From Metabacillus halosaccharovorans (GTDB taxonomy: Bacteria > Bacillota > Bacilli > Bacillales > Bacillaceae): a stretch of 64,000 nucleotides of DNA. Where the stretch lies: assembly GCF_002019635.1 (NCBI RefSeq), contig NZ_KV917371.1, forward strand, positions 1,842,001-1,906,000. The letters are read 5' to 3'. Each line of letters starts with the position of its first letter. Position 1 is the stretch's first letter. The position numbers and the translations under genes are program-made. A model generated the notes under the pieces. That model did not search any database. It was given only the letters and a program-made list of their open reading frames with translations, and was not told where the DNA came from. This document shows, piece after piece, positions 1,640-17,492 of this stretch.

Positions 1640-1916
1640 AAAATAAAAAACCCGCCCCATAAAAGGGACGAGTTGAAATCGCGTTACCACCCTTGTTAGC
1701 TATACTTTGATTTTGTCCTAAGTATAACTCACTTCATTTCCATAACGGTAAAAACCGGAACACCTTTACGTCTATTGACGGTCTAAGTGTCAACTCGAGA
1801 GGTGAATTCATTTACTTCTATCCAAAAAATGCTTTCAGTCCCGGCATTTTCTCCCTGAATGGACGAACTGTAAATTACTAGTCTCTGTCATCGTTTTGTT
1901 TCATATATGTAATGTC
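1640..1916 (-). promoter_or_regulatory. T-box leader (Phe) of pheST
   Basis: Read on the minus strand, the T-box sequence AAGGGTGGTAACGCG lies at 1680-1694. It is followed by a terminator (CTCGTCCC/GGGGCGGG stem, then a T-run, about 1640-1668). In the Stem I region the GAA-TTC-ACC context gives TTC as the specifier codon (1804-1806), matching phenylalanine. When uncharged tRNA-Phe pairs with specifier and T-box, the antiterminator forms and pheST is transcribed. The predicted start is near 1916. Confidence 0.95.
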
Positions 1917-8399: not shown

Positions 8400-8619
8400 C
8401 TCCAAGGTTTTATCAAAACTGAATAGTAATTCTTAACACCGTCATTGTAGATCTTGGTCTTTTTATTTGAGACAAATAAAAAAGTGTGGATGCAAAACAC
8501 CCACACTACGATTGTATACATAAACTATATCATCGTTACCTGCCAACTACAAACGGATGTGTCAATCAGGTGAGAAGCGGGTGCTTCTGCTTGTTAAAAT
8601 ATAAGACTATTCAATTACC
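8400..8619 (-). promoter_or_regulatory. L20-type leader/attenuator of infC-rpmI-rplT
   Basis: The roughly 230-nt leader contains a GAAGC-ACC-CGCTTC element (8570-8592 area) and then an intrinsic terminator (AGTGTGG/CCACACT stem with T-run, 8478-8507) ahead of infC. In B. subtilis L20 binding to this leader favours the terminator. I infer the same here from gene content, terminator position and layout; I did not verify the L20 binding fold base by base. Confidence 0.8.
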
Positions 8620-15676: not shown

Positions 15677-15760
15677 TTTAGAATTCCCCTTTATTATTTA
15701 TTTTTCCCTTTATGTATGAAAAGTTATTCTATTACTATCATACTGAAATTTTCCGATAAT

Positions 15761-15794
15761 AAAAAGAGGTGCAGATTAAATAATCTACACCTCT
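15761..15794 (-). terminator. Terminator after speD
   Basis: On the minus strand AGAGGTGTAGATTA pairs with TAATCTGCACCTCT (one mismatch) and is followed by T5. Confidence 0.9.
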
Positions 15795-15811
15795 GAATGT
15801 TTTGTTTCAAA

Positions 15812-16198
15812 TTAAAGAGCTTTCGCTTCCGCTTGCTTTACTTGTACAGGTCCCATACCTCTTGGTATTTCGATATTTTCACGTGTTTGTGCACCTAAAG
15901 ACTCCGCAATATGGTCTGCAGCAATATTTGGATCTAAATCACCACAAGTGTAAACATCAATACTTGCATAACCATGCTCCGGAAAACTATGAATGGTTAA
16001 ATGAGACTCAGAGATGATAACAACTCCACTTACTCCTTGTGGAGCAAATTTGTGGAAAGCAACCTCTCTAATTTCTGCACCTGACTTTAACGCCGCATTT
16101 ACAAATGTTTTTTCAATGTAATCCATGTCATTTAACTTATCAAAATCGCATCCCCATAATTCTGAGATTACGTGTCTACCCATTGTTTCCATATTCAT
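15812..16198 (-). CDS. speD: S-adenosylmethionine decarboxylase proenzyme
   Basis: SpeD decarboxylates SAM to give the aminopropyl donor for spermidine synthesis. It is a class 1B (prokaryotic) AdoMetDC of 128 residues that cleaves itself to form a pyruvoyl cofactor. The processing site is the Glu-Ser bond in [12 protein letters not shown] (Ser65 becomes pyruvoyl), followed by His70 and the later Cys in YTCGDLDP. In B. subtilis speD is co-transcribed with gapB; here it also has its own promoter and a structured leader containing an anti-Shine-Dalgarno element. The ribosome site is AAAGGGGGA, close to the ATG. Confidence 0.98.
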
Positions 16199-16331
16199 GG
16201 ATCCCCCTTTAACTAGTTTTTACATGAATTCTTCGCGTATGGTATGTGTACTACCACGGGGGAAAGTTAGTCCAGAGAGGTCCTAACCCTTTAAGTAGCC
16301 TTAACACCTTGGCTTTGATAAGAAGTTCACG
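16199..16331 (-). promoter_or_regulatory. Structured 5' leader of speD (candidate riboswitch)
   Basis: The 133-nt leader can form a closing stem P1 (16320-16331 with 16223-16233, 11 bp with one bulge and one G-U) that starts at the predicted transcription start. It encloses three hairpins: P2 AGCC/GGCT (16311-16314 with 16297-16300), P3 GTTAG/CTAAC (16283-16287 with 16266-16270) and P4 TGGTA/TACCA (16252-16256 with 16240-16244). Between P3 and P4 lies TCCCCC (16258-16263), the exact complement of GGGGGA in the ribosome site (16202-16207). It is not a SAM-I box: the conserved core of that class is missing. Confidence 0.6.
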
Positions 16332-16337
16332 AAAAAT

Positions 16338-16366
16338 AGTATACTTTGTTTGTATATGTTTTGCAA
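16338..16366 (-). promoter_or_regulatory. SigA promoter of speD
   Basis: On the minus strand TTGCAA (16361-16366) and TATACT (16338-16343) are separated by 17 bp; the predicted start is about 16331. Confidence 0.8.
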
Positions 16367-16472
16367 CAAACTTTTGAAAAATTATTTGTCATATCTTAGT
16401 TAAAGGGTTTCATCCAACATGATCATGCATTTATTACTTTTTCCGTAGGAATCTTAATTATCCGTTAAATTC

Positions 16473-17492
16473 TCATACACCTAATAATTGTGACATACTT
16501 TTTTCTACCATTTTTGTTAAATCAACTACTCTGCATGAGTATCCCCATTCATTATCATACCACGCCAGTACCTTCACTTTATGATGATCAATGACCATAG
16601 TTGATAAACTATCGACGATTGCTGAGAAGGGGTTTGTATTATAATCAACGGATACTAGAGGCTCTGTAGAATAATCAAGAATGCCTTTTAATGATGTTTG
16701 TGATGCTGATAAAAAGGCATGATTAATTTCATCTGCCGTAACAGATTTATCCACATCAACAACCAAGTCAACAAGTGATACATTCGGTGTTGGTACTCTT
16801 AGTGCCATTCCATGAAGTTTGCCTTTCATTTTAGGCAAGACCAGCTCCAGAGCTTTTGCAGCACCAGTTGTCGTAGGAATGATCGACTGTCCGCAGGCCC
16901 TTGCTCTCCTTAAATCTTTATGCGGATTGTCAATATTTCTTTGGTCATTCGTGTACGCATGAACGGTTGTCATAAGACCATTTCTTATTGTAAACTCCTC
17001 ATCAAGTATCTTTATGACAGGGGCTAAACAGTTCGTGGTACACGAAGCATTTGATATAATTATATGCTCATTCGCATTATAATTTTGTTCATTTACTCCC
17101 ATAACAATTGTGATATCTTCATCCTTTCCCGGTGCTGTTAGTATCACTTTTTTTGCTCCAGCATTCACATGTAGTATCGCCTTTTCTTTATGATTAAATT
17201 TGCCTGTTGCTTCTATAACAATATCGATATTTAACCGCTTCCAAGGAAGCTCTTCAGGATTCCGCTCATCCAACAATAACACCTTTCGACCATTCACGAC
17301 TAAATGATTGTCCATAGCGATCACACTACCCTCGAAAGCTCCATGATTTGTATCATAATTAATTAAATGTGCCAGCGTTTCTGCAGGGTAGCTTGCATTG
17401 ATCGCTTTTATGTTTAACCCTTCTGAAATAGCTCGTCGAAAAACCATTCTCCCTATTCGACCAAATCCATTTATTGCTATATTAGTCACCAT
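16473..17492 (-). CDS. gapB: Glyceraldehyde-3-phosphate dehydrogenase, gluconeogenic GapB type
   Basis: A 339-residue GAPDH with the N-terminal Rossmann motif INGFGRIGRMVFRRA and the catalytic cysteine in SNASCTTNCLAP. The sequence INASYPAETLAHLINYDT right after the first fold is characteristic of Bacillus GapB, the NADP-preferring enzyme that works in the gluconeogenic direction, rather than GapA. Its position next to speD is the same as in B. subtilis. In that species CcpN represses gapB on glycolytic carbon; I did not identify a CcpN site. The ATG has an AGGGAGGATTTTT ribosome site. Confidence 0.95.
   Translation of the reverse strand: MVTNIAINGFGRIGRMVFRRAISEGLNIKAINASYPAETLAHLINYDTNHGAFEGSVIAMDNHLVVNGRKVLLLDERNPEELPWKRLNIDIVIEATGKFNHKEKAILHVNAGAKKVILTAPGKDEDITIVMGVNEQNYNANEHIIISNASCTTNCLAPVIKILDEEFTIRNGLMTTVHAYTNDQRNIDNPHKDLRRARACGQSIIPTTTGAAKALELVLPKMKGKLHGMALRVPTPNVSLVDLVVDVDKSVTADEINHAFLSASQTSLKGILDYSTEPLVSVDYNTNPFSAIVDSLSTMVIDHHKVKVLAWYDNEWGYSCRVVDLTKMVEKSMSQLLGV

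Follow-up and report, generated by a model that had tools for sequence, protein, structure and literature searches.

The speD locus of Metabacillus halosaccharovorans raises the question of how expression of this gene is set, and of whether the RNA ahead of it takes part. Polyamine pools are tightly kept, and a literature search found no account of how Bacillus sets spermidine synthesis. The original prediction, made on a 64,000-nucleotide stretch of the genome (the window), described a riboswitch-like leader in front of speD, with a stem P1 closing around three hairpins and an anti-Shine-Dalgarno. The finding is real, and it reaches further than was then thought; the leader's riboswitch-like character and its anti-Shine-Dalgarno are supported by conservation, by covariation and, in the loci examined, by linkage to speD only. 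The leader, P1, P3 and the anti-Shine-Dalgarno stand; P2 and P4, as reconstructed here, are not supported.

The speD product matches the Pfam family AdoMet_dc (1.4e-37) and the NCBIfam family TIGR03330 (SAM_DCase_Bsu; 135 bits vs. a cut-off of 75.65), and it is identical to the SpeD of Metabacillus niabensis and of Bacillus sp. J37. Translation probably starts at 16192 rather than at 16198, two codons upstream, since the METMG beginning is common to relatives, many of which lack the upstream ATG; for this reason the end of the leader was set at 16193. The glyceraldehyde-3-phosphate dehydrogenase gene lying ahead of speD, by its position presumably gapB, is separated from it by about 270 nt. 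A terminator-like hairpin is found directly 3′ of speD (15794-15765, minus strand), suggesting that speD is probably a single-gene unit; it is the sole terminator-like site in 15700-16600, and the leader contains none. Among the ORFs listed for 24 loci, inspected by eye with no search, none downstream of speD resembled a polyamine gene.

For comparison, 80 speD loci from named genomes were combined with 20 of the 21 genomes of the window's genus, the remaining one giving no speD match. In all 100 loci speD is preceded by a nearly invariant core, AAAGGGUUAGGACCUCUYNGGACUAACUUUCCCCC, closed by helices P1 and P2, which change fast. Two apical-loop bases of the 32-nt core vary freely and the remainder little: mean pairwise identity over the 100 sequences is 0.82-0.98 in J2/3, P3 and J3/2 and 0.91 in the Shine-Dalgarno block, falling to 0.35 in the bases after the Shine-Dalgarno, with 0.57-0.62 in P2b, 0.42-0.53 in P1 and 0.28-0.34 in P2a and the other flanks. 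The core pattern was found in 183 of the 191 loci compared, corresponding to 140 unique leaders, and is missing from L165, L176 and L186-L191. Most loci whose SpeD has just 37-46% identity to that of the window carry a nearly identical core; it outlives most of the identity of the protein encoded downstream, which suggests strict recognition of something unchanged.

The promoter named in the original prediction was confirmed, and its spacing would place the start of transcription near 16331. This support derives from a loose pattern, TTGnnn-N16-18-TAnnnT, which 132 of the 140 unique leaders carry no more than 110 nt ahead of the core (a count without shuffled control), and not from the promoter scan itself, which was at chance level (6 promoter-like sites vs. 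3.8 ± 2.2 in shuffles). The features of the locus are collected in the Table.

Table. Features of the speD locus in window coordinates.
Feature	Position	Strand	Remarks
Whole structured speD leader	16193..16331	minus	putative +1 to the base preceding the conserved start codon
P1, 5′ strand GUGAA.UUCUU	16320..16330	minus	pairs with 16224-16233; one unpaired C
P1, 3′ strand AAGAAUUCAU	16224..16233	minus	partner of 16320-16330
P2a, 5′ strand GGUGU	16304..16308	minus	pairs with 16241-16245
P2a, 3′ strand AUACC	16241..16245	minus	partner of 16304-16308
P2b, 5′ strand GCUAC	16295..16299	minus	pairs with 16250-16254; covariation
P2b, 3′ strand GUAGU	16250..16254	minus	partner of 16295-16299; covariation
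Core internal loop, 5′ side UUAAAGG	16288..16294	minus	mean pairwise identity 0.91, 100 sequences
P3 hairpin GUUAG...CUAAC	16266..16287	minus	outer stem conserved; some lineages have another apical loop in place of GACCUCUYNGGA
Core internal loop, 3′ side UUUCCCCCG	16257..16265	minus	contains the anti-Shine-Dalgarno CCCCC (16258-16262)
Shine-Dalgarno GGGGG	16203..16207	minus	complementary to CCCCC; 99-100% per column in A4
speD	15812..16192	minus	conserved start codon (METMG...), common to relatives; start at 16198 in the ORF list
Glyceraldehyde-3-phosphate dehydrogenase gene	16473-17492		precedes speD; NCBIfam NF005830, 622.7 bits
SigA-type promoter	16338..16366	minus	TTGCAA (16366-16361)-N17-TATACT (16343-16338)

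Three successive models were used for the searches. R1 was based on a MAFFT alignment of 40 leaders (A1), and its match in the window, at 16196-16331 (G000:C1:1858196-1858331, minus strand), scored 132.6 bits. It matched 86 of 87 loci, all from Bacillales except L135, which belongs to another order, and 85 of the matches lie ahead of speD; the other, L176 (31.7 bits, without core and without speD), was rejected as a chance hit. These 86 matches, L176 included, formed alignment A2 and the basis of R2, which matched 56 of 63 loci, the seven without a match being L165 and L186-L191. All 56 come from other Bacilli orders, except L230; 55 lie ahead of speD, orthologues as distant as 37-46% identity among them, and the last, L248, runs off its contig. 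R3 was based on A4, consisting of 100 picked loci, all of which matched (100/100), with L176 excluded.

Comparison of genomes ties the RNA closely to speD. R1 matched 321 of 397 Bacillales genomes, from 109 of 136 genera, with one match per genome in the table, and R2 matched 190 of 398 Bacilli genomes; across the phylum, R1 gave matches in 8 of 398 genomes, all 8 in Bacilli, and R3 in 9 of 398, one of them outside Bacilli. In 209 Bacillales genomes, counting speD at E up to 0.001 with remote homologues included, 173 have RNA and speD, 11 speD only, none the RNA only and 25 neither (five of these assigned by elimination), indicating that genomes without the RNA mostly lack speD as well; speD stands without a model match in 11 of the 184 genomes that bear it. 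A repeat search under looser filters of 40 genomes, most of them weakly matched, kept the match in 40/40, and 28 genomes without a match (20 Bacillales, 8 Bacilli), six of which have a speD match, yielded one marginal hit (E = 0.76). The leader RNA was not seen at methionine or SAM genes in the loci examined, and viral contigs gave no match to it.

In the second class, that of the R3 match outside Bacilli, 8 of 41 genomes matched at E up to 0.5, five at E below 0.02 and three weakly (E 0.24-0.32), and all eight matches are directly upstream of speD. Here different bases make up P2 and P3 (UUUCGC/GCGAAA, ACGCC/GGCGU, GUUGGG/CCCGAC) and the apical extensions differ, being sometimes long, while AAGGGUUGG, the outer P3 stem, CCCCC and GGGGG are kept in all eight leaders. 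It is thus the internal loop and the Shine-Dalgarno, and not the apical loop, that are general to the RNA.

As judged from the aligned leaders, the conserved shape is a single long interrupted arm, P1-P2a-P2b, with P3 at its end. The predicted P1 holds, its pairing being kept in relatives, and the P3 hairpin GUUAG/CUAAC is real, with variants GUGGG/CUCAC in L257-L259 and GUUGGG/CCCGAC in L282. P2 and P4 had been proposed without letters; the hairpins that appear when the single sequence is folded to minimum energy, AGCC/GGCU and GUGGUA/UACCAU, were taken for them. Across 40 relatives these helices show a covariation of 0.176 vs. 0.159 ± 0.010 in shuffles (27 of 500 reach it), with two-sided change in 2 pairs, whereas the competing P2a/P2b reach 0.243 vs. 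0.133 ± 0.015 (0/500). So reconstructed, the earlier P2 and P4 were rejected as the conserved fold, their covariation being near the shuffled level. In the 40 relatives a portion of P4 does pair (88% of cells), with one-sided changes only, and thus P2 and P4 may belong to an alternative fold.

The evidence for the leader is comparative; the folding energy of the window leader is unremarkable (z = -0.44, single-sequence fold). The check named beforehand, covariation and conservation across speD leaders, gave strong signals for both: the core is nearly invariant, and covariation on A4 is 0.403 vs. 0.155 ± 0.007 in shuffles, with 0/500 shuffles as high. On the same alignment 85.6% of cells are paired (69.4 ± 0.6 shuffled), 23 of 27 pairs show two-sided change (18.3 ± 1.0 shuffled), and covariation falls to 0.064-0.129 when partners are slid by 1-3 columns; on A2 it is 0.298 vs. 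0.130 ± 0.007. For P1, P2a, P2b, P3 and the anti-Shine-Dalgarno pairs on A1, 90.7% of cells are paired and covariation is 0.129 vs. 0.095 ± 0.005 (0/500 shuffles), while pairs with two-sided change (6 vs. 5.4 shuffled; 234/500 shuffles) and further pair types (26 vs. 24.7; 166/500) are not raised. These two counts, the least prone to relatedness, are raised on A2 and A4, unlike A1. RNAalifold applied to A1 recovered P3 and the CCCC:GGGG pairs, and not P1/P2, with 0 pairs showing two-sided change.

For P2b, 95.0% of cells are paired in A4, two-sided change occurs somewhere in all five pairs, and it holds the top covarying pair among all columns in a home-made R-scape-like test on the model-fitted A4, from which columns with <60% letters were dropped. 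In this test the 12 top-scoring column pairs all fall within the structure; with E computed over the 27 structure pairs, 9 of them pass E < 0.05, and just 2 do so when it is computed over all column pairs. Since A4 was fitted to the structure, and is biased towards it, the case rests also on an arm-swap test and on the second-class loci. In the former, on 62 representatives of the 140 unique leaders (the 3′ arm of L133 being cut at a falsely matched start codon), cognate 5′ and 3′ arms gave -19.3 vs. -14.3 kcal/mol for swapped arms, and 0/20,000 permutations reached the cognate mean; the cognate arm ranked first in 11/62 and within the top 3 in 18/62. Leaders aligned simply by their offset from the core, with no fitting to the structure, were also examined against a phylogenetic null; this set comprised 124 sequences of the 140 unique leaders, dropping those with a core length other than 32 nt, four without a script-found ribosome site and duplicates. 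The correct P2b pair ranked top, yet at E = 2.4.

The stretch UCCCCC (16263-16258) is complementary to GGGGGA (16207-16202), exactly as first described. Conservation per column in A4 is 99-100% for GGGGG and 97-100% for CCCCC; the latter is the better figure for CCCCC, because its count in the unique leaders (139/140) comes from a search pattern that itself demanded CCC[C/T]C. The GGGGG ribosome site was found by script in 138/140 unique leaders, or 139 counting L133 (AAAGGGGG), scored ‘None’ most likely through the same false start-codon match. The exception is L173, the single one in A4, a seemingly degenerate leader in which changes on both sides have left U opposite U in the alignment, and so no pair. 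By comparison, GGGGG is the best ribosome site in 20 and GGAGG in 87 of 245 ORFs of at least 150 aa, taken with script-chosen start codons from the window and from fourteen 20-kb pieces of its genome. A Shine-Dalgarno fixed at GGGGG class-wide, beside bases of 0.35 identity, is best explained by pairing with CCCCC. This pairing is likely on such constancy; it shows no compensatory change, and neither partner varies enough for covariation proof.

For the window sequence, folded without pseudoknots, the nested CCCCC:GGGGG fold has -31.3 kcal/mol vs. -26.4 for the P1+P2+P3 fold. These folds exclude each other, and in the P1-P2-P3 form the Shine-Dalgarno is free. Adding GG:CC beside P3 takes the bare P1-P2-P3 from -12.4 to -14.8 kcal/mol, a stabilisation through which the conserved GGG could release the Shine-Dalgarno.

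As in riboswitches generally, a conserved and covarying structured element lies in the 5′ leader of a metabolic gene. The best explanation of the comparative data, and a fairly probable one in our judgement, is that the speD leader acts as a translational riboswitch, its Shine-Dalgarno locked in a pseudoknot and its ligand-bound state OFF. It would be a cis-regulatory RNA complete in itself, some 135 nt long, with transcription beginning at P1. P1-P2 would form a long irregular arm ending in the internal loop, UUAAAGG opposite UUUCCCCCGUG, with P3 as a cap. The CCCCC of the loop would reach the downstream GGGGG, and the resulting pseudoknot would conceal the ribosome site; a ligand held in the conserved internal loop would stabilise this pseudoknot and lower speD translation, and without ligand CCCCC would be released, perhaps through pairing to the conserved GGG beside P3, and speD translated.

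Known families do not account for the leader. Searches with Rfam 15 gave no family above the gathering threshold at the leader; the families found in the window lie elsewhere, namely a T-box leader (1661-1900, minus strand, 124.5 bits) and a ribosomal protein L20 leader (8472-8598, minus strand, 78.6 bits). SAM-I (RF00162) has no match in 16000-16600 at E up to 10, and none at the gathering threshold, while the same model finds nine matches above the cut-off, and one below, elsewhere in the genome, in agreement with the stated absence of a SAM-I core. The SAM-III/S-MK covariance model likewise gave no match at the leader, and nothing matched at E up to 0.1 in 14 relatives. The SAM-III/S-MK box sits upstream of metK, where the Shine-Dalgarno pairs with an internal anti-Shine-Dalgarno in translational control. 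The speD leader resembles it in having complementary Shine-Dalgarno and anti-Shine-Dalgarno, which would pair here as well, in serving a single SAM-pathway gene, and in its topology, a closed arm enclosing the partner but not the Shine-Dalgarno; it differs in the gene, in the core and in the position of the anti-Shine-Dalgarno, 3′ of a hairpin. SAM-II, SAM-V and preQ1-II are translational switches whose pseudoknot captures the ribosome site, as is proposed for the speD leader, which differs from them in sequence, gene and topology and has no Rfam match.

According to the accessible part of PMC10853860, a SAM-I variant upstream of polyamine genes, including speD, acts as a spermidine OFF switch in Gram-positive bacteria; it has the SAM-I architecture and is rare (13 examples), whereas the speD leader RNA gives no match to SAM-I and is present in genomes by the hundred. 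The odc1 and potE motifs, candidate RNAs in PMC8632094, are likewise polyamine-related and belong to other genes, with speD and spermidine unmentioned in the portion available. A line in the available part of PMC3574147 lists an ‘unknown or speD leader region’ of B. subtilis between speD and gapB, 79 nt long and enriched 14.1-fold with Hfq; given this position it is most likely the same RNA, recorded there as a co-precipitation peak only, with no structure, conservation or function given. Beyond this line, the literature search retrieved no description of the RNA, though a report elsewhere is possible; none is contained in the accessible parts of PMC10853860, PMC4448311, PMC2743287, PMC11109978, PMC8632094, PMC5519356, PMC6429828 and PMC2864571.

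Other readings of the leader have to be weighed against the riboswitch. That the signal reflects a DNA element, a short upstream ORF or an alignment artefact is hardly credible: the core can be read by eye as an open frame in many species, yet the two-sided base-pair changes contradict this reading, as do recovery of the RNA in the second class (8/8 at speD), the large insert in L237 and one-base indels in the P3 apical loop of L249, L279 and L170, which argue against a coding leader. A protein could instead bind the leader, SpeD or another RNA-binding protein recognising the core and blocking initiation as in ribosomal protein leaders. Single-gene linkage would suit such autoregulation and the Hfq enrichment of the B. 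subtilis RNA points the same way, but the core stays near-identical in most loci where SpeD is only 37-46% identical to that of the window, which is awkward for a co-evolving autoregulator, and SpeD matches only AdoMet_dc (Pfam) and adenosylmethionine decarboxylase families (NCBIfam); we regard this as unlikely.

The remaining alternatives concern the switch itself, and we give each of them little weight. Translation could be tuned without a ligand, through fixed occlusion of the Shine-Dalgarno or a temperature or ion sensor, since CCCCC:GGGGG alone would lower initiation and the nested form is the predicted minimum; however, occlusion needs only these two strands, leaving unexplained why J2/3, P3 and J3/2 are near-constant class-wide and why P2 is maintained through two-sided changes. 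It is similarly doubtful that the leader is an ON switch in which the substrate SAM binds, the P1-P2 aptamer fold forms and the Shine-Dalgarno is freed. The mutually exclusive folds allow it, the P1-P2 one leaving the Shine-Dalgarno unpaired, and the lower energy of the nested CCCCC:GGGGG form means that ligand-free RNA may be OFF, so that an ON-switching ligand is allowed; the anti-Shine-Dalgarno, though, lies within the conserved core beside P3, as expected if its pairing belongs to the folded element, the genome has nine SAM-I switches above the cut-off, and this RNA was not seen at methionine or SAM genes in the loci examined.

For the proposed OFF riboswitch, the ligand would most likely be the end product, spermidine, or a direct product, decarboxylated SAM or MTA. 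SAM is less likely, because a second SAM sensor at speD alone would be odd beside nine SAM-I matches; single-gene linkage fits the other three better, and the spermidine OFF switch of related bacteria, as presented in the accessible part of PMC10853860, provides a precedent for RNA control of such genes by spermidine. That the leader represents a new riboswitch class, widespread in Bacilli and in the second class and sensing a metabolite of the SpeD and spermidine synthase reactions, we put at an even chance.

Several lineages depart from the common form. L186 has a diverged hairpin followed by CCCCC, with GGGGG still present; L187-L189 are speD leaders without the core, and L187 shows a long near-perfect hairpin in its place. 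L190 retains a P2-like arm, as in relatives (AGGAACCAGGAUUCACU / AGUGAAUGACGUAGGUCCUAG), around a core that is entirely different and lacks CCCCC, so that its sensing module may have been swapped, and in L191, a remote speD homologue, the RNA is absent. In L263, L265, L267, L245 and relatives a middle strand UCCUA can pair either with a 5′ UAGGA or with UAGGA right before the Shine-Dalgarno, a possible strand-exchange switch. A second conserved P2 internal loop, GGAACC.AG opposite RCGAUGGUCC or RCGYAGGUCC, was noticed by eye in L231, L237, L262, L275 and L282-L289; several of these lineages also have a 3′ hairpin with loop UUGARAR, which Metabacillus lacks. The strict pattern of this hairpin (CAUGC-UUGARAR-GCAUG type) occurs in only 9/108, so no family-wide claim is made. 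The P3 apical loop of L237 has a GC-rich insertion of about 65 nt, the remaining core being intact.

Should decarboxylated SAM be the ligand, the leader would to our knowledge be the first RNA in nature found to sense it; should it be spermidine, the leader would be a second architecture for that ligand, one without relation to SAM-I and much more widespread. In either case the speD leader RNA would add a widespread missing family to Rfam, and, present as a single copy at speD in four of every five Bacillales genomes sampled, it would provide a direct answer to the question of how spermidine synthesis is controlled.
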